A DNA stretch of 51,846 nucleotides, taken from positions 1 to 51,846 of the forward strand of contig ONEJ01000100.1 in NCBI GenBank assembly GCA_900316805.1, written 5' to 3'. The notes under the pieces are model-generated. The model saw only the letters and a list, made by a program, of their open reading frames with translations, had not been told where the DNA came from and made no database searches. The stretch comes from an uncultured Lachnospiraceae bacterium. GTDB lineage: Bacteria; Bacillota; Clostridia; Lachnospirales; Lachnospiraceae. The position numbers and the translations under genes were made by a program. Shown in pieces: positions 27,907 to 48,779 of this stretch. Each line of letters opens with the position of its first letter. The stretch's first letter is position 1.

Positions 27907-29211
27907 TTACAAAATGTCGATATGCTCTCCGTTCAGTGCCTTGTTCATGCTGCGGACAGCGCAGAATTTACCGCACATGGAGCAGGTGTCATCATGCTCC
28001 GGAGCGCGGTCTGCACGGATGGCCTTGGCAGTCTCAGGATCCATGGCACAAGCCCACTGAGCCTCCCAGTCCAGTGCCCGTCTCGCATCTGCCATCTTGT
28101 TATCCATATCCATAGCTCCCCGGACGCCCTTGGCAATATCTGCCGCATGGGCTGCAATCTTGGAAGCCATGATTCCCTGCTTGACATCCTCTACGTTGGG
28201 CAGTGCCAGATGCTCTGCCGGCGTCACATAGCAGAGGAAAGCAGCTCCGCTTGCGGCAGCGATGGCGCCACCGATGGCTGATGTGATATGGTCATAACCC
28301 GGTGCAATATCCGTAACCAGAGGTCCAAGGACGTAGAAAGGTGCTCCCTGACAAATGGTCTGCTGCATTTTCATGTTGGCAGCGATCTGATCCATCGGCA
28401 TATGTCCCGGTCCCTCTACCATAACCTGTACATCCTTCTCCCAAGCACGCTTGGTCAGCTCCCCGAGACGAACCAGCTCCTCGATCTGGCAGACATCGGA
28501 GGCATCCGCAAGGCATCCCGGACGGCAGGCATCCCCAAGAGAGATCGTCACATCATACTCCCGGCAGATATCCAGAATCTCATCATAGTACTCGTAGAAA
28601 GGGTTCTCCTCTCCGGTCATGGTCATCCAGGCGAAAACCAGTGAGCCGCCACGGGAAACTATGTTCATTTTTCTCTTATGCTTTTTGATCTGCTCAATAG
28701 TCTTTCTGGTAATTCCACAGTGCAGGGTAACAAAATCCACACCATCCTGGGCGTGAAGTCTTACCACATCAATAAAATCCTTCGCTGTCAGTGTATCCAG
28801 ATCTCTCTGATAATGAATAACCGAATCGTACACCGGAACCGTACCTATCATGGCCGGACACTCGGAGGTCAGCTTTCTGCGGAATTCTGTGGTGTCTCCG
28901 TGGGAGGACAGATCCATGATGGCATCTGCGCCCATATTCACAGCTTCCATTACCTTCTGCATCTCCACATTATAGTCCTTGCAGTCTCTGGAAACCCCAA
29001 GGTTCACATTGATCTTCGTGCGAAGCATAGACCCCACACCATTTGGATCCAGACATTTGTGGTTCTTGTTGGCACAGATGGCAACCTTACCGGATGCCAC
29101 CAGGGGCATCAGTTCTTCCACCGTCATCTGTTCCTTTGCGGCAACCTTCTTCAGTTCCTCTGTTACGATTCCCTTTTTTGCTGCCTCCATCTGTGTTGCG
29201 TATTCTCTCAT
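27907..29211 (-). CDS. thiC: Phosphomethylpyrimidine synthase ThiC
   Basis: A 434-residue radical-SAM enzyme that rearranges aminoimidazole ribotide into HMP phosphate for thiamine. Recognisable blocks: [53 protein letters not shown], the [23 protein letters not shown] region and the C-terminal cluster motif [13 protein letters not shown]. The cysteine spacing is CX2CX3C, one residue tighter than the CX2CX4C of the E. coli and Bacillus enzymes. It is the short form without the N-terminal extension. RBS AAGGGAG. The 5' leader holds a TPP riboswitch and terminator. No other thiamine genes are in this window. Confidence 0.96.
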
Positions 29212-29294: not shown

Positions 29295-29310
29295 TCAAAG
29301 TTCCGGTCAT

Positions 29311-29400
29311 ATTTTCCTACGTTGGCATTATCCAAATCAGGTTACAGGTCAAAGCACTACAGCTTACTCTCAGCCTGCTTGCGCAAGCTCCCTTATGTAT
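29311..29400 (-). promoter_or_regulatory. TPP (THI-box) riboswitch aptamer
   Basis: The minus strand carries the conserved elements in order: GGGAGC at the 5' end, GGCTGAGAGTAAGC, GACCTGTAACCTGATTTGG, then ATAATGCCAACGTAGGAAA. Together with the downstream terminator it should switch off thiC (and the genes behind it) when thiamine pyrophosphate is plentiful. Confidence 0.95.
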
Positions 29401-29443
29401 CTAAATCACCGGGATATGACAGTTTCCCAGTCAGCTACTTCCT

Positions 29444-35123: not shown

Positions 35124-35616
35124 TCACAGCGAATCAATCAATGCCTTTATGGTAATGCCTTCTGTGGTTTTCCAATATGCCGGCCCATTTAAAGACTCTA
35201 ATCTGGTTTCAATCTGGTTTTTCTTTCGATACATATTTACCGCATCTATGCCTGCCTGGGAGGATGTATTATAATAGCCTATCTTTTCTCCCTTTGCGCT
35301 ATAATAGGGTTTCTTATTGTCATCCAAAAGAAGCATATAGCAGGCATGATCCTGCGGAACATATTCAGCCACAGCATAATGGCAGACCCCCATCATACTC
35401 CATGATGAACTCGGTGCCATCCTGAATTTTGTGGGCGTTATATAAATCTGTAAAGCTTATCATTCTCCGCTGAACGTTTGATTTTGGTATCCTGCCGTAA
35501 TGCTTTTCATCAAGAGAAAGATAGATTTCATTACACAAAGCCGTATTCACCAATGCCATAGGAGAACCATGAACCGGCTCCCTGAGATTATTGGGGTACT
35601 GGGTTTTATTCTTCAA
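35124..35616 (-). pseudogene. Unrecognised gene with a single-base frameshift in a G tract
   Basis: Two minus-strand frames abut: the first runs from 35616 to about 35400 (NKTQYPNNLREPVHGSPMAL ... DGTEFIMEYDG), the second from there to 35124 (VCHYAVAEYVPQDHACYMLLLDDNKKPYYSAKGEK ... ALIDSL). They join into one protein of about 160 residues if the run of five Gs at about 35394-35390 is read as four. No family recognised. It overlaps the 3' end of the cytidylate-kinase-like gene by 11 bases, so it is the tail of that operon. Sequencing error and real decay cannot be told apart. Confidence 0.55.
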
Positions 35617-36232
35617 AACGGATTTTTACATACTCCTTAATCAACTGTACACATTTCTCACGGCCAACCCTGTCACTGTTGAGCACCAAATCGTAGTTTG
35701 TCGGGTTCGTCCAGTCTTTGCCGGAGGTGTAGTAACTGTAATACCTAGAGCGGTATTTATCCGTTGTCTGGATCAGATAATTGGCACGTTTTTCGGAGAC
35801 ATGCATTTTCTCCATAATTGATTTGACACATGCAGCGCGCGGAGCCTCCACGTACACACTAATCACATTTCTATAATTGCGAAGAATGTCATCCGCACAT
35901 TTTCCTATAATGATGCAACTTTCGGTGTTTGCCAGAGTGCGGATAATATCTGCCTGAATATTGAATACATTCACATCGGATACGAAATCGCGATCCATTG
36001 GCTCCACCACACCACTGACTGGCATCCGACGCATAAAGTTCGCCAGATGCTTTCCCCGAAGTATCTCATCCGTCTCGACAAACACGCTCTCGTCAATTCC
36101 GCTCTGGTCAGAGGCCATTGTGAGAATCTGCCGCTCATAGCAGGGGATCCCAAGCTCTTTTCCAAGACGCGTTCCAATGTCCTTTCCACCGCTTCCGAAT
36201 CCCCTTGCTATCGTAATTACATAATTTCGCAT
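35606..36232 (-). CDS. Cytidylate kinase-like protein
   Basis: A 208-residue P-loop protein of the cytidylate-kinase-like family common in clostridia. ITIARGFGSGGKDIGTRLGKELG is a glycine-rich P-loop variant; CIIIGKCADDILRN and the lid-like RANYLIQTTDKYRSRYYSYYTSGKDW follow. The substrate is unknown; it is not the housekeeping Cmk. It lies 14 bases behind the DUF523 gene at the end of the pyrimidine operon. A nucleotide-kinase role would fit pyrimidine metabolism, but that is only suggestive. Confidence 0.82.
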   Translation of the reverse strand: MRNYVITIARGFGSGGKDIGTRLGKELGIPCYERQILTMASDQSGIDESVFVETDEILRGKHLANFMRRMPVSGVVEPMDRDFVSDVNVFNIQADIIRTLANTESCIIIGKCADDILRNYRNVISVYVEAPRAACVKSIMEKMHVSEKRANYLIQTTDKYRSRYYSYYTSGKDWTNPTNYDLVLNSDRVGREKCVQLIKEYVKIRFEE

Positions 36233-36246
36233 GTTCTTACCTCCCG

Positions 36247-36717
36247 CTACTGTGCTTCAAGCTCCGCCAGAAAAACTGCTGCTTCATCTATATCTTCCTC
36301 GCCAAAAACTATAAATCCGGCATTTCTCAGATACTCGACCGCCAGTCCCTGCCCCGGAACCTTTGTGTCTGTAAAAGTTCCGTCATAAATAAACTTGCTG
36401 CCACAGGACGGACTGTCCTGTTTCATAATACAAAATGCAACATCTTCAGACTGTGCTAACCGCAATGCCTCTTTCGCACCCTTCGTATATTCCTCAGTCA
36501 CATCCCGCCCGGTCTGTGCCTGTACATGAATCCCATCAATGCGCTGGGAATCAGGGCGTGGGGTCGGAAGCCCTCCAAAGACCTCCGGACACACCGGAAT
36601 CAGACGCCCCTGCGCTTTCCACTCGAGGAAACGCGGGTCTGTCTCTGTCGTATCACCGCCGTCGTATCGGACAATCTCTCCACCATACAGGCATTTGCTC
36701 ACTAGAATCTTCTTCAT
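36247..36717 (-). CDS. DUF523-family protein
   Basis: A 156-residue protein of the DUF523 family: KKILVSKCLYGGEIVRYDGG, LIPVCPEVFGGLPTPRPDSQRI, and FCIMKQDSPSCGSKFIYDGTFTDTKVPGQGL. The conserved cysteines (in SKCL, PVCPE and SPSCG) suggest metal or Fe-S binding. Function unknown. The ATG at 36717 is preferred over 36732 because GAGG lies ahead of it. Probably cotranscribed with the carbamoylase upstream (63-base gap). Confidence 0.85.
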   Translation of the reverse strand: MKKILVSKCLYGGEIVRYDGGDTTETDPRFLEWKAQGRLIPVCPEVFGGLPTPRPDSQRIDGIHVQAQTGRDVTEEYTKGAKEALRLAQSEDVAFCIMKQDSPSCGSKFIYDGTFTDTKVPGQGLAVEYLRNAGFIVFGEEDIDEAAVFLAELEAQ

Positions 36718-36780
36718 CACTTCTGACCTCATTTCTTACAAACATAATTTCTATCTGCCCCTGAATCGCAACCACAATCT

Positions 36781-38043
36781 TTACTGTTCGTCTGCCTTGA
36801 GCACGGCATTCAACATAACGGATGCGCCTTCCGTACAGTGTTCCGGTGAGGAGTACTCTGGCTCACAATGGGATAATCCATCCCTGGACTGTACGAAGAT
36901 CATGGTTGCCGGGAGCATGTATGCGGCAAACTGTGCATCATGTCCGGCACCGGAATGAATGTACTGGTGTGATACGCCAAGTTCTTCTGCAGCTTCCTTA
37001 ACGAAACCAACCAGCTTCTTATCCCAATATACAGTATCACGGTTCCAAGCCTTTACGACTTCGCAGGTACAGCCTGCCCATGTCTTTTCCGCACAGCTCT
37101 TTACGATTGCAAGAACCTGCTCAAGCACCTTCGGATCCTCATGTCTTGCATCAAATGAAAAATCAAAGAAATCAGGTACACAGGTATGTACACATGGATG
37201 ACAAACCACCTCGCCGGTTGTGTATACAAGCTCCGGATAGCCCAGCTTATCAATCTCCTCATGGAGATAGCAAAGTGCCTGTGATGCAGCTAAAAATGCA
37301 TCCTTTCTCTTTGGCATCGGGAAGGTCCCCGCATGAGTGGTCTGCCCATAGAATTTCAGGCGGTAATTAAACATACCGAGTACACAGTCAACGACACCGA
37401 TATCATTTCCCGCATCCTCAAGGATTGGACCCTGCTCGATATGTGTCTCAAAGTAGTACTCATATTTTTCCGGAGAGAGACGATACTTCTTATCTCCTTT
37501 GAACCCGGATTTTTCCAGTGCCTCACCGAAAGTGCTTGTATTGTCAAGAATGCTCTTCGAATTCATCATGTCTTCATATTTGAACTTGCTGCGGATATCT
37601 TCCGGCAGATAATCGTAGCATACAATTCCGGAACACATCATTGCCGGTGGATAGAGAGAACCTTCCTCATTTGTCCAGATCATCGCTGTAAGAGGATGCT
37701 TATGTGGAATGTTGTTCTCCGCAACGGTCTCAAGTACCTCCATCGCAGACATGACACCTAAGATTCCATCATAATTTCCGCCATTTTTTACAGAATCACA
37801 GTGAGATGCCATCACAATTCTCTTTGCATCCGGATCGCTTCCCGGGAGCGTTGCGTACATGTTGGCAACATCGTCAATTTCGATTGTTGCTCCGATTGCT
37901 TCCATGCGCTTTTTAAATTCATTTCTTGCCATAATCGCTTCCGGAGACAGGGAATAGCGGGTAATTCCGCCATGTCCGGCATCTCCAAACTGTGAAAATG
38001 TTTTAATCTTATCTGTCATTCGTTCCAAACTGCATGTATACAT
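36781..38043 (-). CDS. M20-family N-carbamoyl amidohydrolase (beta-ureidopropionase candidate)
   Basis: A 420-residue di-zinc amidohydrolase of the M20 / allantoate amidohydrolase / N-carbamoyl-amino-acid hydrolase group. Metal and substrate motifs: MASHCDSVKNGGNYDGILGV, WTNEEGSLYPP, FETHIEQGPILED, a dimerisation domain with GQTTHAGTFPMPKRKDAFLAA, and a C-terminal SGAGHDAQFAAYMLPATMIFVQSRDGLSHCEPE. Bacterial beta-ureidopropionases belong to this group. Placed behind PreA and dihydropyrimidinase, the likely reaction is N-carbamoyl-beta-alanine to beta-alanine, CO2 and NH3. I chose the ATG at 38043, with AAGGAAGG upstream, not 38085. Confidence 0.9.
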   Translation of the reverse strand: MYTCSLERMTDKIKTFSQFGDAGHGGITRYSLSPEAIMARNEFKKRMEAIGATIEIDDVANMYATLPGSDPDAKRIVMASHCDSVKNGGNYDGILGVMSAMEVLETVAENNIPHKHPLTAMIWTNEEGSLYPPAMMCSGIVCYDYLPEDIRSKFKYEDMMNSKSILDNTSTFGEALEKSGFKGDKKYRLSPEKYEYYFETHIEQGPILEDAGNDIGVVDCVLGMFNYRLKFYGQTTHAGTFPMPKRKDAFLAASQALCYLHEEIDKLGYPELVYTTGEVVCHPCVHTCVPDFFDFSFDARHEDPKVLEQVLAIVKSCAEKTWAGCTCEVVKAWNRDTVYWDKKLVGFVKEAAEELGVSHQYIHSGAGHDAQFAAYMLPATMIFVQSRDGLSHCEPEYSSPEHCTEGASVMLNAVLKADEQ

Positions 38044-38090
38044 AATCTGCACCTTCCTTTTCGTTAATTCATATTTAATAGTCACACTTA

Positions 38091-39572
38091 TTATTTATCC
38101 ACGCGGGTTCCGGCGGTAATCGATCCGGTCGGACAAACCAGCTTACACAGCTGACATCCCACACACTTCTTCGGATCCATGACCGGCTGCCGATTTTCAT
38201 CCATGCGAAGTGCCTGATGCCCACCGTCAAAGCAGGACAGATAACATCTGCCACAGCCGACACAGCTGCTGCGGTTAAACCGCGGATACTCGATACTATG
38301 ACGATTCACAGCCTCCGCCGGCACCACATTCGGCAATGCCTTTCCAACGATTTCACGAATGGACCGGGCACCAATACTGGTAAGATAATCCGTCATTCCT
38401 TCTATCATATCCTCGATAATACGATAGCCATACTGCATAACGCTGGTGGTTACCTGCACCGTCTCACATCCAAGAGCCATAAACTCTGCCGCATCTCTCC
38501 ATGTCTCAATACCACCCATACCACTTACCGGCACATCCCGGAGTCTGGCATCCTTTTTCAGATCGTGGATAAAACGCAGCGCAATTGGCTTGACTGCCTT
38601 GCCGGAATATCCACCCACTGCCGACTTTCCATCTACATCTGGTGCGGAAGCGAAGGATTCCAGATCAATATTCATCACACTCTTAATTGTGTTGATTGCC
38701 GCCAGTCCATCCGCACCGGACTGAATAGCCGCGTGTGCCGGAATCTCCATGCGGGTGATATTCGGTGTCATTTTGGCAAGAATCGGAAGCTTTGTTCCCC
38801 GTCTTGTTGCAGCTGTATATCTTGCAACAAGCTCAGGGTTTGTTCCCACATCACTGCCCAGTCCCTCACCCACCATCTGCGGACAGGAGAAATTACACTC
38901 AATAATATCGGCTCCAGCCGCTTCCATCAGTTCTGAGAGCTTTGTCCACTCAGTCTCATTTTGTCCCATAATGGACGCTATAATAACCTTTGTAGGATAA
39001 TCCTTTTTCAGCTGCTTTAGATATCCCAGGTTTTCCTCCAGCGTGTGATCGGAAATCTGCTCGATATTTTTAAACCCTACAAATGGATTATTCTCCTTTT
39101 CAAGCGCTGCAAATCGCGGCGATACTTCTTCCGGGACAAACAGACCGATCGTCTTAAACGCGACCCCAGCCCATCCCATTTCAAATGCCTTTGCCACCAT
39201 CTCATAATTGCTTCCCACCACGGAGGATGAGAGGAAAAATGGATTCTCACAGTGTACACCGCAAAAATCAATGGACAAATCTACCGTACTTTCCTTCGAA
39301 GCATCTTCCTCTATGCCGGAAAAAAGCATCGGAATATCAATTCCCCTGTCAATCCGGCTGCGGGTGCAGGCATCCACACAGGGTGCACTGCAGCCTTCAC
39401 ACGGATTACTTTTTCCTAATTTTCTTGCCGCTCCGGTTACATTTTCGAAACGAAGTGAGCGGACAATATCAGCAACTGCAAGCCCTTTCGGGCAACAGCT
39501 GCTGCAGGGAGCGTCCTGACACAACAGGCATCTGCTCGTCTCACTCTTTCTTTTTAACTGTTCATATGCCAT
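38091..39572 (-). CDS. preA: PreA-like dihydropyrimidine dehydrogenase with extra N-terminal Fe-S domain
   Basis: A 493-residue protein. Residues about 10-75 form a cysteine-rich domain ([17 protein letters not shown], then [16 protein letters not shown]) like domain I of mammalian DPD or the start of PreT/GltD. Residues about 100-400 are the DHODH-type FMN barrel ([41 protein letters not shown] with the active-site Cys; [16 protein letters not shown]). The end carries two 4Fe-4S motifs ([11 protein letters not shown] and [14 protein letters not shown]). It should reduce uracil and thymine to the dihydro forms. The FAD and NAD(P)H domains (II and III of DPD; PreT in bacteria) are absent here and nearby, so the electron donor is open. 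RBS AGGAGG. Confidence 0.92.
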
Positions 39573-39593: not shown

Positions 39594-40961
39594 CTATGCT
39601 CTTTTTGCACGTTTTACAAAATTGCCCATACCAGGCGTTCCAACATAATCTCCGTTATCGTAAACCAGCTTGCCACGAAGATAGGTCTGTACCGGATAAC
39701 CGTGGAGCTTTTTGCCCTCCCAGATTGTGTGATCATAATCGGAATGCATATTGTCCACGCTGATCGTGAAATCCTTATCTTTATCATAGATTACGATGTC
39801 AGCATCTTTTCCAACTGCAATCGCGCCTTTGTTTTCACAGCCGAAAATTTTTGCCACGTTGGTGGAGCAAACCTCTACAACCCGCTCGAAAGAAAGCTTG
39901 CCGGTATTTGCCGCATCCAGCATATATGGATAAAGATTCTCAACGCCGGCACAACCATTTGGAATTTTGGTAAAGTCATCCTTACCCCAATCCTTTTCAT
40001 AGCTCTGGAATGGACAGTGATCTGTTGCCACAGTATCAATGAAACCTGCCTTCAGCGCAGTCCACAATGCGTCCTGGCTCTCCTGCCCCTTCATAGGAGG
40101 CGAGCAGACGAAATTGCGGCCGTCCTCCCGCTTATATACATCGCAGGTAAATTCAAGATACTGCGGACATGTCTCGATCAGAACCTCATGTCCCTCTTCC
40201 TTTGCCTTGATGCATGCTTCAAGTCCTTCCTTGTCTGCCATATGTACGAGATACACTGGGGTATCCAGATGGCTTGCCCAGTGAACAACCCGCTTGTCAG
40301 CCTCTGCCTCCACAAACTCAGGACGGCTCATATAGTGATACCATGCAGAGGTTTTGCCCTCTTTTAAGTACTGCTCTGTACGCAAATCGATTAAATCCGG
40401 ATTCTCTGCGTGAACATTAATCATGGCACCAAGTTCTTTGGCGCGAAGAAGAAGTCTTGCAAGCATTCCGTCATCAACCATCATGCCTTCCTTTTTATAA
40501 ACCAGAAAGCACTTGAAGCTTGTAATACCTTCTGAAACAGCCTGCTCCATCTCATCTAAAATCTCTCCATCATTAAGATCGGTGATGCAGCAGTGAAATG
40601 CATAATCACAGCATGCATCTTTTTCCAGAATCTCTTTCTTGGAATTCACCAGTCCCAGAATGGTCTCTCCCTTGTGCTGTACCGGATAATCAAAAATGGT
40701 GGTAACGCCGCCACACACGGCTGCTCTTGTTCCGGACAGATAACTGTCTGCCGAAACAGTTCCACCAAACGGCATCGCCATGTGTGTGTGGGCATCGAGT
40801 GCGCCAGGCAGCACAAGCCTGCCTGTCGCATCTACAACCTGATCCGCACTAAACGGAAGATTCTTTCCAATTGCTACAATTTTTCCACCGTCCACTGCAA
40901 CATCAGACACAAAGCTCTCTGTCGCGGTAACAACAGTTCCACCTTTAATCAGTAATTCCAT
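39594..40961 (-). CDS. Dihydropyrimidinase
   Basis: A 455-residue amidohydrolase-superfamily enzyme. The metal site is given by ALDAHTHMAMPFGG, the carbamylated Lys in GITSFKCFLVYK, His in VHAENPDLI and VHMADKEG, and Asp in VATDHCPFQSYEKDWG. C-terminal small domain as in D-hydantoinases. It opens the ring of dihydrouracil or dihydrothymine to N-carbamoyl-beta-amino acids. It starts 14 bases behind the binding-protein gene with GAAGGAAG, and is followed by preA after 21 bases. A hydantoinase activity is a possible alternative, but the preA neighbour favours pyrimidines. Confidence 0.95.
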   Translation of the reverse strand: MELLIKGGTVVTATESFVSDVAVDGGKIVAIGKNLPFSADQVVDATGRLVLPGALDAHTHMAMPFGGTVSADSYLSGTRAAVCGGVTTIFDYPVQHKGETILGLVNSKKEILEKDACCDYAFHCCITDLNDGEILDEMEQAVSEGITSFKCFLVYKKEGMMVDDGMLARLLLRAKELGAMINVHAENPDLIDLRTEQYLKEGKTSAWYHYMSRPEFVEAEADKRVVHWASHLDTPVYLVHMADKEGLEACIKAKEEGHEVLIETCPQYLEFTCDVYKREDGRNFVCSPPMKGQESQDALWTALKAGFIDTVATDHCPFQSYEKDWGKDDFTKIPNGCAGVENLYPYMLDAANTGKLSFERVVEVCSTNVAKIFGCENKGAIAVGKDADIVIYDKDKDFTISVDNMHSDYDHTIWEGKKLHGYPVQTYLRGKLVYDNGDYVGTPGMGNFVKRAKRA

Positions 40962-40975
40962 ACTTCCTTCATCTC

Positions 40976-42136
40976 CTATTCCGCTTTGAAGTTGTCATAC
41001 TTATATACTAATGTCATTCCGGATCTCTGGTAGATCTGTGCAATCTCCACCAGATCCATTCCACCGGCATCTGCAACTGCCATATTTGTCGGCCATGTTA
41101 CACCAAAGTCAACAGTTCCATTATTTACGGCTGTTGTCTCGGAGATATCACCACCACCAGATACGATGTTAACTTTCAGACCAACCTCATCATAGTAACC
41201 CTTTGCATCTGCAACATAATAGCCCATGAACTGTGCCTGCGGCAGCCACTTGAGCTGGATAGATACTTCGCTCTTTTCCACGTCGAACTTGCCGTCAGAA
41301 GAACCGGTTGCAGCCTCATAAAAACTGGTATCGCGGATATCATCCAGCGTCAACTTTGAAAAAGCATCCTGTGCTGCGGAATCATCCAATGTCACATACT
41401 TCTTTGCAATATCCAGTGTCTGCTGCATTGCCGCATCATCAATCTTACCAACCTCACTTACAGAATTGCCGTTCATGTCCGTGGAAACAAGCTTTGCCAC
41501 CTCTCCAGCCATGTATAACTGGTGATCCTGCGATACAGAAGAACCTGCCTCATATACGATCTGTGCTGCCTCCTCCGGATTCGCAACTGCATATTCCCAG
41601 CCCTTAAGGGATGCATACAAGAATGCCTTTACGGTCTCTGGATTTTCTGCAGCAAAGCTCTTCTTACAGAAAATGTTATCTTCCAGCATAGCAACACCCT
41701 CATCGTTCATATCAATATATCCAACCGTATCACCATAGCCGTATCCACCATCGTAATTGTTCTTTACCAGACCAAGCTCGTTGTAGGTCATAGCAGATGC
41801 CAAGGTACTGGAGTCATCATCAAAGGCATCCATGGTAAAATCTTCGCTCAAATACTCTGTCGGAAGGCCGTACTTGGCAAGGAGAGCAAGAATCTCATAT
41901 TCGTTTCCGATTCCCCAATTGCTGACCTTCCCTTCGCCTGCTGACTTCTTGATAATCTCTTCGTTGCTCATTACGGCGGCTTCGCTATCTGCTGAACCGC
42001 TCTCTGATGTACTCTGTGTTCCTGCGGGGGGTTCACTCTTGGTCTCACTGGATGAGGAACCACATCCAGTCATCATTGCAACTGTGATTACCGCCGCAAG
42101 GGACATACTCATTAATTTTAATGTTCTCTTCTTCAT
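40976..42136 (-). CDS. Circularly permuted NMT1/THI5-type substrate-binding lipoprotein
   Basis: A 386-residue lipoprotein (signal to MTGC, lipid Cys25; Ser/Glu-rich linker to about 60). The mature part is in the wrong order. Residues about 65-280 hold what is normally the second part of the family (NWGIGNEYEILALLAKYG, ASAMTYNELGLV, GVAMLEDNIFCKK, ASLKGWEYAVANPEEAAQIV). After a short linker (GSSDGKFDVEKS) the last 97 residues are the normal N-terminus (VSIQLKWLPQAQFMGYYVAD, then VDFGVTWPTNMAVA and IAQIYQRSGMTLV). Relatives such as ThiY and RibY bind pyrimidine or flavin-like ligands. Here it should present pyrimidines to the two permeases upstream. RBS AGGAGG. Confidence 0.93.
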   Translation of the reverse strand: MKKRTLKLMSMSLAAVITVAMMTGCGSSSSETKSEPPAGTQSTSESGSADSEAAVMSNEEIIKKSAGEGKVSNWGIGNEYEILALLAKYGLPTEYLSEDFTMDAFDDDSSTLASAMTYNELGLVKNNYDGGYGYGDTVGYIDMNDEGVAMLEDNIFCKKSFAAENPETVKAFLYASLKGWEYAVANPEEAAQIVYEAGSSVSQDHQLYMAGEVAKLVSTDMNGNSVSEVGKIDDAAMQQTLDIAKKYVTLDDSAAQDAFSKLTLDDIRDTSFYEAATGSSDGKFDVEKSEVSIQLKWLPQAQFMGYYVADAKGYYDEVGLKVNIVSGGGDISETTAVNNGTVDFGVTWPTNMAVADAGGMDLVEIAQIYQRSGMTLVYKYDNFKAE

Positions 42137-42242
42137 AATTTTGTCCTCCTAAATTTTTTTATATTAAATATTTTTGTTACCATGAAGTGAAATATGCGAA
42201 TTACTTCGCTGCTGAATTATTACTGTTTCTGCGCCTCCGCGA

Positions 42243-43082
42243 TTAGTGGTAGCGCCGAAGGAGAATACTCTGTACAATCACCAGCACCACATAGGAAACG
42301 ATGCCGAGAATACACGCCGTTGCAATGTATGCCCAGGCGGTTGGATACTGTGCCAGTACAATGTTCTCTCGAATCTGTCTGCCGACACCAATGATATATT
42401 CCGCAAAGTACTCACTGACGATTGCGGTCATAATACTTGCCGGTACCGATACCTTGAGTGCAACAAATATGTATGGTACTGAATTGGGAAGCTGAAGCTT
42501 CAAAAGGGTTGTTCGCTTTTTTGCTGCGTAAGTCGCCATCAGATCTTTTGCGTAGGGTTTTAATTCTGTCAGTCCCCGATAGGCATTCAGACTCATATTT
42601 GCCGCTGCAATCAGCATGACTACCAGAATTTTTGCAACCATGCTTCGTATGCTGGCATCATCGGACACATCCTTGGTCCAGTTATTCATAACGGGTGCCA
42701 GTGCCACAACAGGAATTGATGCAAAGGCACCGATGACACTGAGGCCACCCTTTCCGGCTCTTGGAAAAAACGCTGCGAGAATGGCGATTCCATAGCCCAG
42801 CAGACTTCCGACTGCCAAACCTGCAAGTGCAACGGTCATGGTTGCCACCACGTTCTCCCAGATCTTTCCGATATTTTCCATAAAAATCGTTTTAATCCTG
42901 CCGAGAAGAGGAAGGGTAAAGGTGTCGGTTTTAAACCAGTGATGAAGCACCTGGGTCTGCCAGAGCGCCAGAATTATGATTCCCAGTAAAACCGGCAGTA
43001 TAATGGTTGCCGCAGCCTGTAGCTTTTTATTTTCCTGCATCCGCCGATACAGACTTTTTGGTCTCTTTCTTTTCTGGGCCAT
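42243..43082 (-). CDS. ABC transporter permease (second)
   Basis: A 279-residue SsuC/TauC/ThiX-type permease with about six membrane helices and the cytoplasmic coupling loop AAKKRTTLLKLQLPNSVPYIFVALKVSVPASIMTAIV (here given in full only as a location, about residues 185-220). The start follows the first permease by one base. It forms a heterodimeric channel with that permease and is driven by the ATPase at 43923-44714. The 106-base gap to the binding-protein gene has only a weak GAAGT/ACTTC dyad. Confidence 0.9.
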   Translation of the reverse strand: MAQKRKRPKSLYRRMQENKKLQAAATIILPVLLGIIILALWQTQVLHHWFKTDTFTLPLLGRIKTIFMENIGKIWENVVATMTVALAGLAVGSLLGYGIAILAAFFPRAGKGGLSVIGAFASIPVVALAPVMNNWTKDVSDDASIRSMVAKILVVMLIAAANMSLNAYRGLTELKPYAKDLMATYAAKKRTTLLKLQLPNSVPYIFVALKVSVPASIMTAIVSEYFAEYIIGVGRQIRENIVLAQYPTAWAYIATACILGIVSYVVLVIVQSILLRRYH

Positions 43083-43083
43083 C

Positions 43084-43923
43084 CTAATTTCCTCCCTTCA
43101 TCCTTCTTACCTTTCGCATTCCCCGTTTTTCCGGTGAAATCAGATTTTCAATCCAGTTCATCAAATAGCTGCTGAAAATACCAATGAATGCACTGAAGAA
43201 CACAATTAACCAGAATACGTATATGGACATCGCATGCTTCAAAGACTGGGAGAGCATACATCCCATTCCTCCATCACCTTGAAGTGTATCCACAAGAATG
43301 GATGCGGTAATTGCCATCGGTGCTGCAATCTTTGTTCCCGTGAAAAAGTACGGTATTGCAGAAGGAATCAGCACTTTGGTGTAAATCGTGTGTTTTTTTG
43401 CTGCGTAGGTATACATCAGATCATATTTATCTTTATCCACGGATTTAAAACCTGCCAACGTGTTTGTCGCAACGGGATAAAAGCTTAAGATTGCAGCAAT
43501 CACAATACGGCTCTTATTGATATCCCCTGTTATTGAGAGGACGATCGGCGCCAACCCCAATACCGGAATCAACTGAATCAGCATCAGATACGGGAACAAC
43601 ATTTTCTCACAAAAGCCTGACAGTTTCATTAACAGTGCAAGCAGAAAACCGGCTGCCGTACCAAGTGCAAATCCTAGGAGTGCTCTTAAAATCGTTGCCC
43701 TCGCACTGGTCAGTACCACCATGGTTGCCGTCATTCCGGAAGAAACCTTATTTCCGGAAAATGCTGCCGCAATAATCTGATACAGATGTGGTAAAATGTT
43801 TTCCGGCGACCTCTTCGTTATGGAAACAACAACGGCTCCAATCTCCCACGCTGCAATCAGCAGAAGAATCCAAAGAACAGTTGATACCCATTTTTTATCA
43901 AAAAGTTTACTTATTTTCTTCAT
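43084..43923 (-). CDS. ABC transporter permease (first)
   Basis: A 279-residue permease of the same family, about six helices, with the coupling loop at about residues 175-205 (AKKHTIYTKVLIPSAIPYFFTG). It overlaps the ATPase stop by one base (ATGA-type overlap), so the two are translationally coupled. Being of equal length to the next gene but clearly diverged, the pair probably arose by an old duplication. Confidence 0.9.
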   Translation of the reverse strand: MKKISKLFDKKWVSTVLWILLLIAAWEIGAVVVSITKRSPENILPHLYQIIAAAFSGNKVSSGMTATMVVLTSARATILRALLGFALGTAAGFLLALLMKLSGFCEKMLFPYLMLIQLIPVLGLAPIVLSITGDINKSRIVIAAILSFYPVATNTLAGFKSVDKDKYDLMYTYAAKKHTIYTKVLIPSAIPYFFTGTKIAAPMAITASILVDTLQGDGGMGCMLSQSLKHAMSIYVFWLIVFFSAFIGIFSSYLMNWIENLISPEKRGMRKVRRMKGGN

Positions 43924-44714
43924 TAAACACTGCCCCCTTCAAAGCTGTTGCGAACTTTAAGTACCAGCTCGTTAAAGTGCTGCGTCTCCTTCATTTCCAG
44001 CGTTCTCGGTCTGGGAAGATCCACATCCACCACTGCGGATAATCTTCCCGGATGCGGAGATAACACACAAATCCGATCGGACAGGAACACCGCCTCCTGA
44101 ATATTGTGGGTAACAAAAATAACCGTCTTGTTTGTTTTCCGCCAGATACGAAGCAGATCCTCATGCAATTTTTCTTTGGTGAACTCATCCAAAGCTGAGA
44201 ACGGCTCATCCATTAAAAGAATTTCCGGCCGGATTCCAAAGGCTCTCGCAATATTTACTCTCTGCTGCATTCCACCACTCAGCTGCTTTGGAAAATGATT
44301 GGCAAAATCTTTTAATCCTACCATTTCCAACATCTTGCCTGCCCGCTCGGAGCGTTCCTCTTTGGACTGGTACATAATCTCAAGGGGTAGCTCCACATTT
44401 TTTTTAACGGTTCGCCAGTCGAATAATACCGGCTGCTGAAATACAAAACCGAATTTCTGTTGAAGTCGTACTTCCTTCGGAGTCATTCCTCCAATTCGTA
44501 CGGTTCCCTCTGTCGGCTCCTGCAAATCTGCTATACTTCGTAGTAATGTTGTCTTACCACATCCGGAAGGTCCAAGCAGTGAAATGAACTCTCCTTTATA
44601 GATGTCAAGATTAACGCCGGTCAGTGCCTGTACATCGTTTCCTGCGTTATCCTGAAATGTTACACCCAGATCTTTGATCTGTATTTCAATTTCTCTTCCC
44701 TGCAATTCACCCAT
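43923..44714 (-). CDS. ABC transporter ATP-binding protein
   Basis: A 263-residue ATPase of the SsuB/TauB/ThiZ type. Walker A is LLGPSGCGKTTLLRS, the Q loop FVFQQPVLFDWRTVKKN, the signature LSGGMQQRVNIARAF, Walker B ILLMDEPFSALDEF and the H loop VTHNIQEAVFLSDRI. First gene of the transport and catabolism operon that runs on to 35606. GGAGGG lies eight bases before the ATG. Its leader has an operator dyad, a promoter and a terminator-like hairpin. Confidence 0.95.
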   Translation of the reverse strand: MGELQGREIEIQIKDLGVTFQDNAGNDVQALTGVNLDIYKGEFISLLGPSGCGKTTLLRSIADLQEPTEGTVRIGGMTPKEVRLQQKFGFVFQQPVLFDWRTVKKNVELPLEIMYQSKEERSERAGKMLEMVGLKDFANHFPKQLSGGMQQRVNIARAFGIRPEILLMDEPFSALDEFTKEKLHEDLLRIWRKTNKTVIFVTHNIQEAVFLSDRICVLSPHPGRLSAVVDVDLPRPRTLEMKETQHFNELVLKVRNSFEGGSV

Positions 44715-44872: not shown

Positions 44873-46024
44873 TTATCCGTAGATTTTACGGTACAACTGC
44901 ATGCAGTCCTCTTTTGTCACAGCCTTTCTTGTATTTCCCGGACTGCCGGATGCAACTGCATCCTCCGCCATCTTTTCGATGACTGGCAAAAATTCCCCTT
45001 CCTTAATACCATATTCACGAAGCGTAGGAACCTCGCAAATGCTGCAGAGCTTTTCTATCTGTGTAAGAAGTGCCTTTGCTGCTGTCTCATCACTGTCCTG
45101 CTCCGTTGCTGCACCGATTGCCCTGCCAAGATCTGCAAATGGGACATAAGCTCCATCCAGCGCAAATCCCAGACATTCCTTTAAAAGCATTGCGTTGCTT
45201 AAACCATGAGGAACATGGAAGAGTGCTCCAATCGGACGGCTCATGCCATGCACAAGGGTAACGCTGGAATTATTGATACAAATTCCCGCCTCCAGAGCCG
45301 CAAGCGACATTTCCTCACGGGCCTTTGCGTCATAACCATTCTGATATGCAACCGGCAGATATTTCATAATCCGCCGCACCGCGGAAACCGCAAAAACATC
45401 CGTCAGCGCAAACGCCTTTTTTGAGGTGTACGCCTCCACCGCATGAGTCAATGCATCCAATCCCGTGGCGGCCGTCACACTTTTCGGCATATCCATGGTG
45501 AAATCCGGGTCGACAATCGCAAGATCCGGAACCAGACAATCTCCTTTCAGGAGCATTTTAATATCCTTTTCCTGATCCGTAATGATCGTAAATTTCGTTG
45601 CCTCTGATCCTGTCCCTGAGGTCGTCGGAATTGCGACAATCCCCGGCACCCTTCCTGTCATCTCTTTTCCGTTATAGTCGGCAATCTTTCCCTCATTAAC
45701 CGCCATTGCCGCAATGGCCTTTGCCGAATCAAGCGGGCTTCCACCGCCAATTCCGATTACAAACTGACATCCCGCCTTTCGATACTGTACCAGTCCTTCC
45801 TCAATCATCTGATCGGTTGGTTCGCCAGTAATACCGTCAAAAACATAATAGGCAATCTGTGCCTTTTCAAGTGTCTTTTTTAACTGATCAAGCATTGGGG
45901 ATTTCCCTACATGCTTGCCTGTAACTATAAAAGCCCGGCTTCCATATTCACTTAGATAAGGTATTGCAGAAGTCAGTGCATCCTTTCCTGTCAGAATATG
46001 GGATGGTATTGCAAAATGCGCCAT
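44873..46024 (-). CDS. Iron-containing alcohol dehydrogenase (malonic semialdehyde reductase candidate)
   Basis: A 383-residue group III alcohol dehydrogenase. The NAD(P) site is GIGGGSPLDSAKAIAAM. Metal ligands lie in DPDFTMDMPKS, GLDALTHAVEAY, VHGMSRPIGALFHVPHG. It is cotranscribed 22 bases behind the class III aminotransferase. The inferred job is reduction of malonic semialdehyde, the deamination product of beta-alanine, to 3-hydroxypropionate; sequence alone does not prove it. The ATG at 46024 (MAHFAIPSHILTG), with AAAGGAAG upstream, is chosen over 46087. Confidence 0.9.
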   Translation of the reverse strand: MAHFAIPSHILTGKDALTSAIPYLSEYGSRAFIVTGKHVGKSPMLDQLKKTLEKAQIAYYVFDGITGEPTDQMIEEGLVQYRKAGCQFVIGIGGGSPLDSAKAIAAMAVNEGKIADYNGKEMTGRVPGIVAIPTTSGTGSEATKFTIITDQEKDIKMLLKGDCLVPDLAIVDPDFTMDMPKSVTAATGLDALTHAVEAYTSKKAFALTDVFAVSAVRRIMKYLPVAYQNGYDAKAREEMSLAALEAGICINNSSVTLVHGMSRPIGALFHVPHGLSNAMLLKECLGFALDGAYVPFADLGRAIGAATEQDSDETAAKALLTQIEKLCSICEVPTLREYGIKEGEFLPVIEKMAEDAVASGSPGNTRKAVTKEDCMQLYRKIYG

Positions 46025-46046
46025 GCTGTCACTTCCTTTCCTGATT

Positions 46047-47372
46047 TTAAATAAACTCTTTATCCACGATTCCAAGCACTTCATCAAGCTTTGCCAGTTC
46101 TTCTGTCAACTGCTCTTCTGTAATGATAAGCGGTGGACAGACAAAAATCATATTTTCATGAGAGTATGTCATAAATTTGCGTTCCTTTAGCATTCCGACA
46201 ATCTTTCCCATAACTCCCTGTGGATCACTGCCGTAAGAAACCAAAGCCTCTTTTGTTGTTTTATCCTTAACCAGCTCCACGCAGGAGAACAAACCAATAT
46301 AGCGCACATCTCCGACACAGGCGTGGGTGTCTTTCAGCACCTCCAGCTTTTCACCTAATACTTTTCCAACCTTGTTAACATTGTCCAGAATATTTGCCTT
46401 CGAATAGTAGTTGACACAGGCAACACCTGCCGCACAAGCCAGTGGGTGTCCGCTGTATGTCAGTCCGCAGGAAAGAAGATGATCATCAAAGTAAGATGCA
46501 ATTTTACTGCTGACTGCTACGCCGCCAAGCTGTACATAGCCACAGGTTACACCCTTGGCAAATGTCACAATATCCGGTGTTACATCAAAGTTTTCAAAAG
46601 CAAACATCTTTCCGGTACGTCCCCAGCCTGCCATTACCTCGTCACAGATCATGACAATTCCAAGCTCATCACAGATCTTGCGTACGCCCGGAAGATAACC
46701 CTTTGGCGGGATGATGATTCCGTTGGATCCGGTAATGGTCTCCATAACGATGGCGGCAACCTGATCCGATCCCTCGTAAATAATCTGCTCACGAAGCTTG
46801 GTCAGATAATACTTTGTTGCTTCCTCTTCCGATGCAAACTCGACTGGCTCTCTATATATGTACGGATCAAAGAATTTCACAAATCCAGGAATGCCCGGCT
46901 CCAATGGATAACGTCTCGGCTCACCGGTTAAGTTTCCTGCGCCAAAGGAAGAACCATGATAGCTGCGGTAACGGCTGAAGATCTTCTTCCTGCCTGTAAA
47001 CATCCGGGCAATCTTAATGGCGTTTTCATTGGCATCCGCTCCGGCATTTGTGAAAAAGACTTTTCCAAATGTATCCGGCAACAGGTCTACAATCATTTTT
47101 GCCAGTGTTACCCTCGACTCAGCCGCGTAGGATGGTCCTACAAAGCAAAACTGATCCACCTGTTTCTTTATTGCATCTGCAATATCCGGATTGCCAAAGC
47201 CAAGATTTAAATTTACCAGCTGGGAAGACATATCCGTATAACGATTTCCGTCATAATCATAAAAATAAATTCCTTCCGCCTTTTCCACCGGAATTGGATT
47301 GAGTGCTCCCTGTTTGCTCCAAGACTGAAGTACATATTTCTTTGCATTCTCTTTTATTTCCTGTGATGTCAT
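46047..47372 (-). CDS. Class III aminotransferase (beta-alanine aminotransferase candidate)
   Basis: A 441-residue PLP enzyme. Landmarks: YTDMSSQLVNLNLGFGNP, FFTNAGADANENAIKIAR, YRSYHGSSFGAGNLTG, MICDEVMAGWGRTG, the PLP Lys in DIVTFAKGVTCGYVQLG, and TYSGHPLACAAG. It resembles taurine-, beta-alanine- and omega-amino-acid:pyruvate aminotransferases. The operon with an alcohol dehydrogenase and the neighbouring pyrimidine genes point to beta-alanine (or 3-aminoisobutyrate from thymine). I favour the ATG at 47372, eight bases after GGAAGG, over 47378. Confidence 0.9.
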   Translation of the reverse strand: MTSQEIKENAKKYVLQSWSKQGALNPIPVEKAEGIYFYDYDGNRYTDMSSQLVNLNLGFGNPDIADAIKKQVDQFCFVGPSYAAESRVTLAKMIVDLLPDTFGKVFFTNAGADANENAIKIARMFTGRKKIFSRYRSYHGSSFGAGNLTGEPRRYPLEPGIPGFVKFFDPYIYREPVEFASEEEATKYYLTKLREQIIYEGSDQVAAIVMETITGSNGIIIPPKGYLPGVRKICDELGIVMICDEVMAGWGRTGKMFAFENFDVTPDIVTFAKGVTCGYVQLGGVAVSSKIASYFDDHLLSCGLTYSGHPLACAAGVACVNYYSKANILDNVNKVGKVLGEKLEVLKDTHACVGDVRYIGLFSCVELVKDKTTKEALVSYGSDPQGVMGKIVGMLKERKFMTYSHENMIFVCPPLIITEEQLTEELAKLDEVLGIVDKEFI

Positions 47373-47431
47373 AATCATAACCTTCCTTTCCTGCCCCTGT
47401 ATTTTATGGACGACTCATTTTGATATTCCCC

Positions 47432-47478: not shown

Positions 47479-47498
47479 GATTGTGCTATAGCACAATC
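47479..47498. promoter_or_regulatory. Operator-like 20-bp palindrome (copy 1)
   Basis: GATTGTGCTATAGCACAATC is a perfect palindrome in the divergent region between the aminotransferase and the PucR-type regulator. Its core TTGTGC-N4-GCACAA recurs at 44853-44868. Likely binding site of the adjacent regulator. Confidence 0.7.
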
Positions 47499-47523
47499 CC
47501 ATTGGCAATCGACACTTTTCGAC

Positions 47524-47551
47524 TTGCAAATCAGGAAAAATGTGCTACAAT
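47524..47551 (+). promoter_or_regulatory. Predicted promoter of the PucR-type regulator
   Basis: TTGCAA (47524-47529), 16 bases, TACAAT (47546-47551). The transcript would start near 47558, immediately before a terminator-like hairpin. Confidence 0.55.
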
Positions 47552-47563
47552 TTGTTGTATTCG

Positions 47564-47603
47564 AAAGGCAACGAAGCCCATTGGGGGATTCGTTGCCTTT
47601 TTT
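47564..47603 (+). terminator. Terminator-like hairpin in the regulator's own leader
   Basis: AAAGGCAACGAA (47564-47575) pairs perfectly with TTCGTTGCCTTT (47589-47600); an inner CCC/GGG adds to it, and the T run extends to 47603. The RBS (AAGGAG) follows at once and the ATG is at 47616. As the upstream gene is divergent, this hairpin can only act on the regulator's own transcript. Confidence 0.8.
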
Positions 47604-47615
47604 AAGGAGAAAAAT

Positions 47616-48779
47616 ATGGCAGTAGAATTACAGAGACTAATTGAAAAAGTAGAACATATGGATGTGACACTGATTGCAGGCGAAGGCGGTCTGCATAATC
47701 TGGTGAGCTGGGTACATATGGTTGAAACGACAGAAGCATCGGACTTTTTGCAGGGCGGAGAGATTGCATTTACAACAGGACTTGGTCTGAGTAACCGTGT
47801 GAGTCTGCTCACCCTTACAGAATTTATTTATCAGAAAAAAGCGGCCGGTATTATCGTAAATACAGGTCCTTTTCTTGAATCAATCCCGCAGGAGGTGATC
47901 GACTTTTGCAATGAAAAGGATTTTCCCCTTTTTGTTATTCCCTGGAAAATTCATCTTGCAGAAGTGATGCGCATTTTCTGCTTTTCCATCACCAAGGATG
48001 ATCAGCGCACTCTTGAAACAGCTGCAGCCTTCAAGAATGCAATCTTTTTTCCAAAACAGGAGGAGCTCTATGTGGTTCCACTGTCACAGCAGGGATTTCA
48101 TGTAAACTGGAAATATTCTGTCTGTGTCATCCGGCTTCACAACAGTATTTCCAGTATCTCAAACCGCCTGGAGCAGCTTATGGTCAGCATTTCCACCTTT
48201 GCCCAGCACAAATACCAGAATTCTGCCGTCTTTTCCCATGATGCAGAAATCCTTGTTGTGACAGCTGCCAACTCTGATGAACAGCTTCACAATTTTATTA
48301 ATGAAATCAAGTCTCATACTCTCTCATCCCTCGCCAGCGGCGAAACAATTACCATGGGATGCGGCAAACTGACAAAGAGCGTTCGATGTGTCTGTAAAAG
48401 CTATCATCAGGCATTATCCATCCAGAAGCTTCAGGAGAATTCCAAAATAGATCCTTCTCTTGTCTTTTACTCGGATATGGGCATTTATAAATTACTAATA
48501 GGAATTGAAGATAAGGAAATCATGATAGAATATTATGACAAGACCATCCGGCCTCTCCTAGACTATGACAAAAAAAATGATTCCGACCTCGCCGTTGTGC
48601 TCCGGTGCTACCTGAATCATAATGGAAGTGTGAAAGGAACTGCCGATGAGCTTTATGTCCACCGCAACACAATCAACTATAAATTAAATAAGATTTCAGA
48701 AATTCTAGATATGGATCTCTCACAGCTTGACATCCGCCTGCAGCTGAGTGTGGGGTTCATGCTGCAGGATATGCTGTAA
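47616..48779 (+). CDS. PucR-family transcriptional regulator
   Basis: A 387-residue regulator: an N-terminal PucR sensing domain (about 1-125; GEGGLHNLVSWVHMVETTEASDFL), a middle region with GGDEF-like spacing (CdaR type), and a C-terminal PucR helix-turn-helix (about 325-385; YLNHNGSVKGTADELYVHRNTINYKLNKI). Family members respond to purines, allantoin, amino acids or sugar acids and often activate transcription. AAGGAG stands six bases ahead of the ATG at 47616; the frame is open further upstream but crosses the promoter and hairpin. It probably controls the two catabolic operons through the TTGTGC-N4-GCACAA dyads. Confidence 0.9.
   Translation: MAVELQRLIEKVEHMDVTLIAGEGGLHNLVSWVHMVETTEASDFLQGGEIAFTTGLGLSNRVSLLTLTEFIYQKKAAGIIVNTGPFLESIPQEVIDFCNEKDFPLFVIPWKIHLAEVMRIFCFSITKDDQRTLETAAAFKNAIFFPKQEELYVVPLSQQGFHVNWKYSVCVIRLHNSISSISNRLEQLMVSISTFAQHKYQNSAVFSHDAEILVVTAANSDEQLHNFINEIKSHTLSSLASGETITMGCGKLTKSVRCVCKSYHQALSIQKLQENSKIDPSLVFYSDMGIYKLLIGIEDKEIMIEYYDKTIRPLLDYDKKNDSDLAVVLRCYLNHNGSVKGTADELYVHRNTINYKLNKISEILDMDLSQLDIRLQLSVGFMLQDML

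Follow-up and report, generated by a model that had tools for sequence, protein, structure and literature searches.

Introduction

Circular permutation is known in binding-protein families other than the one considered here. As described in PMC4990184, Tp0684 (TpMglB-2) of Treponema is a 'Type Ic' glucose-binding lipoprotein with a natural circular permutation, in which the first strands of the N-lobe have moved to the C-terminus, and its relatives occur in treponemes and gut Gram-positives. In these respects it resembles the lipoprotein studied here, from which it differs, according to the same text, by its type I fold, its sugar ligand, and a permutation that adds a fourth crossover. Circular-permutation relations have also been reported among glycine betaine-binding proteins, including OpuAC (2b4l), in the CPSARST work (PMC2395249).

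A 103-residue block was found at positions 166-268 of 268 in B. subtilis OpuAC and at positions 3-102 of 256 in L. lactis OpuAC. This block swap indicates that a type II receptor, the fold class to which OpuAC presumably belongs, has been permuted before, near what appears to be the same crossover and in another family. Like our receptor, B. subtilis OpuAC (2b4l, 3chg, 5nxx) is permuted, with a chain end that, judging from the sequence, would lie near the same lobe crossover; it differs by its Pfam family and its betaine ligand, and it is cut after its SIEDLKK segment, whereas our receptor is cut before the equivalent segment. The homologous family is that of ThiY, THI5, and NMT1 (3ix1, 4h65, 4nmy), supported by a Pfam NMT1 score of 108 bits and by PDB matches. 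Its members have the canonical order, unlike our receptor, and bind thiamine-precursor pyrimidines according to the depositors' names (3ix1, THI5).

Here, we describe a receptor encoded in a 51,846-nucleotide stretch of Lachnospiraceae DNA (hereafter, the window). The initial annotation had proposed that the binding protein of a pyrimidine transporter is circularly permuted, and had called such folds rare among lipoproteins. The first proposal was supported by profile, pairwise, structure-prediction, and comparative analyses, with the ligand deduced from gene context; the second has to be qualified, given the permuted precedents of TpMglB-2, itself a lipoprotein (PMC4990184), and B. subtilis OpuAC. 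No permuted NMT1-type or pyrimidine receptor was present among the literature matches listed, the scope of which left out most subscription journals, and a conserved permuted receptor of this type is apparently new.

Genomic context of the receptor gene

The receptor gene lies in an operon in the order aminotransferase, iron alcohol dehydrogenase, ATPase, permease 1, permease 2, and receptor, followed by dihydropyrimidinase, PydAc-like dehydrogenase, carbamoylase-family amidase, and 2-thiouracil desulfurase:

36247..36732, minus strand, 2-thiouracil desulfurase family protein (PF04463, E 3.9e-39)
36781..38085, minus strand, hydantoinase/carbamoylase-family amidase, PydC-like (TIGR01879, 331 bits, cut-off 204)
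38091..39572, minus strand, dihydropyrimidine dehydrogenase without FAD domain, PydAc-like (NF006183, 574 bits, cut-off 335)
39594..40961, minus strand, dihydropyrimidinase/hydantoinase, PydB-like (TIGR02033, 489 bits, cut-off 393)
40976..42136, minus strand, permuted NMT1/THI5-type substrate-binding lipoprotein, 386 aa (ORF; Pfam NMT1, E 6.8e-31; rotation tests)
42243..43082, minus strand, ABC permease 2 (BPD_transp_1, E 1.4e-14)
43084..43923, minus strand, ABC permease 1 (BPD_transp_1, E 6.6e-23)
43923..44714, minus strand, ABC ATPase (ABC_tran, E 1.9e-35)
44873..46087, minus strand, iron alcohol dehydrogenase family, PydE-like by position (NF041833, 294 bits, under the cut-off of 550)
46047..47378, minus strand, class III aminotransferase, PydD-like by position (NF004718, 552 bits, cut-off 472)
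47481..48779, plus strand, PucR-family regulator, divergent from the cluster (PF07905, E 3.9e-29)

Homologues of PydA, PydB, and PydC, each scoring above its cut-off, thus occur together, as in a reductive pyrimidine degradation cluster, and the PydD and PydE candidates (beta-alanine aminotransferase and malonic semialdehyde reductase) were matched at the family level. The Pfam matches of the PydAc-like dehydrogenase included Fer4_20, DHO_dh, and Fer4_21, and no Pyr_redox; in lacking an FAD domain in the Pfam scan, it resembles the ferredoxin-dependent PydAc described in Clostridium chromiireducens in PMC7332683, the main text of which contains no words beginning with transporter, ABC, or permease. 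The divergent PucR-family protein is a candidate pyrimidine-responsive regulator, and the gene that immediately follows the thiouracil desulfurase gene downstream (35606-36232, minus strand) is cytidylate kinase-like. An Rfam scan of the window at the gathering threshold revealed no riboswitch upstream of the pyrimidine operon.

The receptor ORF is intact and starts with ATG. A lipobox (MTGC, with Cys25) and adjacent genes for two BPD_transp_1 proteins and one ABC_tran protein characterize its product as the predicted lipoprotein receptor of an ABC importer. The continuous frame, signal peptide, and ribosome-binding site announced by the initial annotation were all recognized in the sequence, with the quoted motifs at the positions given, as was a short linker between the old termini. 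The gene could be divided as follows, with L102 denoting a locus with an unpermuted receptor:

42145..42150, minus strand, ribosome-binding site AGGAGG, 8 nt upstream of the ATG (read from sequence)
42062..42136, minus strand, lipoprotein signal peptide, residues 1-25, lipobox MTGC with Cys25 (read from sequence)
41972..42061, minus strand, low-complexity tether, residues 26-55 (read from sequence)
41306..41971, minus strand, original middle and C-terminal block, residues 56-277 (residues 70-278 correspond to L102 148-347)
41270..41305, minus strand, 12-residue linker GSSDGKFDVEKS, residues 278-289, from old C-terminus to old N-terminus
40979..41269, minus strand, original N-terminal block, residues 290-386 (residues 301-381 correspond to NMT1 profile 2-82)

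The first of these blocks comprises the second lobe, followed by the latter portion of the first; the other holds the initial portion of the first lobe together with the crossover strand. The canonical order (lobe 1a, lobe 2, lobe 1b) is therefore not that of the window receptor.

Block order of the receptor

Pfam NMT1 (PF09084) matched the receptor (E 6.8e-31, 108.3 bits, cut-off 20.5) in two stretches, the best of which, residues 301-381 at the C-terminus, corresponded to the start of the profile (2-82 of 216), in agreement with the proposed displacement of the old N-terminal part. When residues 287-386 were placed before residues 56-277, a single stretch was obtained (15-235, profile 2-216 of 216, 109.8 bits), compared with two stretches and 109.1 bits for the native order in the same test. 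Rotation thus barely shifts the summed score and instead changes collinearity: the score exceeds the PF09084 cut-off, with full profile coverage only after rotation. An annotation that assumes collinearity therefore captures just a portion of the native protein, whose profile match comes in separate, swapped stretches.

Comparisons with individual proteins gave the same picture. The native receptor aligned with PDB entries 4nmy and 3ix1 as two blocks each, in reversed order, versus one piece (4-305 on 7-297 of 4nmy) and one stretch (5-241, against 3ix1) after rotation; with THI5 (4h6d), one block passed the threshold and the other fell below it. In BLASTP against L102, the native receptor gave two swapped pieces (E 1e-41 and 8e-29), with residues 282-379 matching 40-133, and the rotated receptor a single alignment (E 6e-75). 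Similarly, four unpermuted relatives each gave two swapped pieces with the native receptor and one alignment with the rotated one (E 1e-69 to 6e-75); with L103, a weak third piece (E 6e-4) appeared in addition, around the signal peptide. In a collinear profile-profile comparison between the permuted family and L102, only columns 20-228 were covered. Alignment to NMT1 HMMs and structures, the check proposed along with the initial annotation, hence yielded one full-length match only after rotation; an end-to-end match of the unpermuted order, named there as evidence to the contrary, was looked for, and the native order never aligned in this way. A fusion of two fragments of different origin was ruled out, because the two blocks have their matches in the same set of unpermuted proteins, which they cover jointly.

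Predicted structure and position of the break

The structure prediction that had been suggested was performed with AlphaFold2 on residues 50-386 (67 aligned sequences), and gave a model with a mean pLDDT of 94.3 and a pTM of 0.92. In a sequential Foldseek search of the PDB, the leading matches were B. subtilis OpuAC (E 6.6e-7, TM-score 0.41). There was no NMT1-type entry among the 50 matches listed, as expected for a permuted chain. The similarity between the OpuAC break and that of the window receptor rests on sequence position and on sequential Foldseek rank, at this TM-score of 0.41; PF04069 (OpuAC) had no match in the receptor at E up to 1, and this family had no match in the window's genome. 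With profile matches to NMT1 families and leading structure matches to OpuAC, the receptor would not belong to the 'Type Ic' proteins, which are defined by a type I fold with a permuted N-lobe.

The lysine closing the 'LVYK' strand is followed by 1-7 residues up to the chain end in 80 of the 81 permuted proteins compared, and by 12 residues in L037. The other chain end is formed by a short helix, followed by the 'GKVGNWG' strand. Based on type II topology, we take the chain-end position to be the passage from the first to the second lobe. The break would accordingly lie at the first lobe crossover, and the three-dimensional place of the new ends, read from topology and sequence, is likely to be close to it.

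The permuted chain may have originated by duplication and trimming, with a cut at the loop passing from the first to the second lobe and with the old ends joined by a short linker (12 residues in the window receptor). A tandem-duplication intermediate was not seen: among 106 motif-bearing ORFs of the loci analysed, a total in which overlapping loci are counted repeatedly, none had two first-strand motifs. The predicted fold is that of a usual type II binding protein with two lobes, which would close on its ligand, presumably with unchanged function. Where two continuous chains normally link the lobes, there would be one, supplemented by a free crossover strand at the C-terminus, and the membrane tether would enter at the second lobe. 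The tether spans 23-40 residues from the lipobox cysteine to the first strand in unpermuted proteins, and a median of 47 residues from the cysteine to the NWG motif in 73 permuted proteins; the permuted proteins of L009 and L073 (value 282), which had been assigned to the wrong class, were disregarded.

Distribution of the permuted order

To find orthologues, as had been suggested, a genome collection was scanned with the permuted receptor as query, and the best 80 of 113 relatives were kept. The permuted block order was present in 79 of these 80 loci; in the remaining locus (L082), the contig ends before the second block. Because the query was itself permuted and only the best 80 of 113 were kept, this sample favours permuted forms, and the proportion gives no estimate of how common permutation is. 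Hosts of permuted loci were Lachnospiraceae, Ruminococcus, and other Clostridia; moreover, nine of the 80 loci were from spirochaetes (L046, L056, L061, L062, L064, L069, and L078-L080), and two from one Acholeplasmatales (Mycoplasmatota) MAG. The 80 other permuted proteins of the rotated set were at least 62.3% identical to the window receptor.

When the rotated query was run against 391 genomes of the class, 38 gave matches. Six of these, including the window's own genome, had the permuted order, and one (G617) had just the middle/C-terminal block. Close unpermuted proteins were found in G733, G623, G817, and G801, in the last alongside its permuted one, and the other 28 genomes gave distant one-piece matches only (28-34% identity). 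With an unpermuted query, 12 of 398 genomes of the phylum had matches: seven unpermuted relatives in seven genomes (39-69% identity to the query), four distant matches (27-29%), and the permuted receptors encoded by G304 and by the window's genome.

Gene context was recorded for 84 loci (83 permuted and one cut), many of whose contigs end early. Both permease 1 and permease 2 were present in 83 loci, the hydantoinase in 77, the ATPase in 75, PreA in 71, the aminotransferase in 60, the carbamoylase in 50, and the alcohol dehydrogenase in 47; these counts hold a few duplicates, as L002 and L086, L005 and L044, and L038 and L146 look, from their identical scores, like the same sequence in each pair. 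Permease 2 was split over two ORFs in L044 and L005, seemingly the same sequence, by a frameshift or a sequencing error.

Unpermuted counterparts in the same pathway

Unpermuted receptors were also found beside pyrimidine-degradation genes. L088 and L102 carry one in the same cluster type, with a PydAc-size dehydrogenase and a hydantoinase; in L144, the dehydrogenase and hydantoinase lie beside it in the opposite direction; and in L103-L107 and L113, its neighbours include a PreA homologue, another gene that matches PreA weakly, and a homologue of hydantoinase. These nine loci share with the window the same type of ABC importer, the pathway genes, and 51 residues of the window receptor, conserved in at least 97% of the 81 permuted and in all nine pathway-linked unpermuted proteins; they differ by the canonical block order of their receptors. 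After rotation, the window receptor was 42.9-45.5% identical to the receptors of L088, L102-L105, and L144, and about 35% identical to those of L106, L107, and L113.

The hydantoinases of L102 and L088 were 73.6% and 72.7% identical to that of the window, more than those of four of six permuted loci (58.0-71.4%), so both topologies serve closely similar enzymes. The window permeases were 35-43% identical to those of six unpermuted loci (38-43% for L102 and L088), versus 48-82% for six permuted loci. A paralogous importer branch (L145, 9005-10051; L147; L148) combines an unpermuted receptor, whose first strand is VQSLWLPQGQF, with a thiouracil desulfurase; its available contigs, short for L147 and L148, carry no pyrimidine-degradation genes. 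G801 has both an importer of this L145 type and a permuted pyrimidine-cluster receptor.

Origin of the permuted order

Phylogenetic analysis was based on two rotated-alignment trees of the substrate-binding proteins (SBPs; 93 rows each, 81 permuted and 12 unpermuted), in the second of which the far rows L108, L110, L111, and L112 were left out and L151 was not included. In both, the permuted proteins formed one clade (100/100). In an importer tree of the ATPase and permeases (47 rows, with outgroups), the 32 permuted-associated rows likewise formed one clade (100/100), which sits inside unpermuted rows (97/100). L151, a very distant outgroup, was used in three quick trees (96 rows each); these were set aside, since L151 was on a capped branch inside the permuted rows in two of them. 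These two, from the joined alignment and the middle/C-terminal-block alignment, gave two order changes because the long L151 branch fell inside the permuted rows, a result that speaks against a single event; the third, from the N-terminal block alone, gave one. One permuted clade was thus recovered in four of the six trees, the other two being quick trees with the distant outgroup.

One permutation inside the importer lineage fits these data best. We consider it very probable that the window protein is the receptor of an ABC importer for uracil-type pyrimidines, and that it derives by one ancient circular permutation from an NMT1/THI5-type receptor of the same lineage. In a draft assembly such as the window's genome (103 contigs, 82% completeness), a misassembly or a private local rearrangement could have produced the swap, and a local misassembly had been named as a possible refutation. 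The recurrence of this order in 79 of 80 loci of other records, including isolates and a complete chromosome (L043), and in a 94%-identical copy of the receptor in G005, rules out such an event and leaves it a practically negligible probability. It would be very improbable, too, that the permuted order is ancestral in the importer family and the unpermuted one derived: the root of the SBP tree is weakly placed, with the branch joining the permuted rows to L088 and L102 supported at 97/70 in the first tree, and in the N-terminal-block quick tree the permuted rows branch outside the near unpermuted rows, but the rooted importer tree nests the permuted group, and the PDB entries with a one-piece match to the rotated receptor (4nmy, 3ix1) have the canonical order.

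Putative ligand and functional significance

The receptor probably hands uracil-like molecules to the uptake pump, and the pathway genes point to uracil or thymine as its ligand. In THI5-like proteins, a first-strand tryptophan stacks on the pyrimidine, and the first-strand tryptophan of the window receptor, W297, is conserved in at least 97% of the 81 permuted and in all nine pathway-linked unpermuted proteins. The 2-thiouracil desulfurase gene, at the end of the operon, lies directly downstream of the carbamoylase gene. In L144, L145, L147, and L148, such a gene immediately follows the unpermuted receptor gene downstream, a placement that suggests thiouracil salvage through the importer family. 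L088 showed a weak, distant match only. Against this hint, the gene was found in just three of the 80 permuted-query loci, 63 of which have at least 5 kb downstream. In PMC11036815, Anaerostipes hadrus, which has PreTA and HydA, is described to convert fluorouracil; the receptor may be a candidate for the uptake of uracil, and perhaps of fluorouracil, in gut Lachnospiraceae.

Another ligand, such as a dihydropyrimidine, hydantoin, cytosine, or a thiopyrimidine, is conceivable, if somewhat unlikely. Enzymes vary among permuted-receptor clusters, with the carbamoylase seen in just 50 of 84 loci, many of them cut by contig ends, and the desulfurase accompanies the unpermuted L145, L147, and L148 receptors on contigs devoid of pathway genes; against this, a PreA homologue occurs in 71 of the 84 loci, and the adjacent PydAc belongs to a family that reduces uracil (PMC7332683). 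It may also be asked whether the permutation itself was selected, the second-lobe tether and single inter-lobe connection altering opening, release, or permease docking. We regard such adaptation as unlikely. It would agree with fixation among the permuted-clade members sampled, which span Bacillota, Spirochaetota, and one Mycoplasmatota MAG, with a break near the same crossover in a second type II family, OpuAC, with the greater permease similarity among permuted loci, and with the effects of hinge connections on binding and dynamics of binding proteins, as stated in PMC10601554. However, the same pathway also runs with unpermuted receptors and similar enzymes (the L102 hydantoinase, for example), SBP divergence between groups (42.9-45.5% identity for the nearer ones) is no larger than permease divergence, and tethers are long in both topologies. 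The use of both topologies for one pathway in different bacteria also fits a near-neutral change. Less likely still is a broader reading, in which type II binding proteins were cut independently at or near the same first lobe crossover at least twice, in OpuAC and in the pyrimidine receptor. Such a 'Type IIc', parallel to the type I proposal for TpMglB-2, would have one continuous inter-lobe connection and a second-lobe tether, which would change opening and docking and be favoured in lipid-anchored receptors of Gram-positives and spirochaetes.

Since both topologies occur in one importer lineage and the same pathway, natural permuted/unpermuted pairs can replace engineered ones in testing what the second inter-lobe connection and the point of tethering contribute, and constitute a natural experiment on how binding proteins work.

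Other features of the window

The only Rfam match in the window was a TPP riboswitch (29296-29404, minus strand) upstream of thiC (27907-29211), unrelated to the operon. In addition, a 2084-aa protein with Listeria-Bacteroides repeats and a dockerin type I domain is encoded at 8012-14266 on the minus strand.
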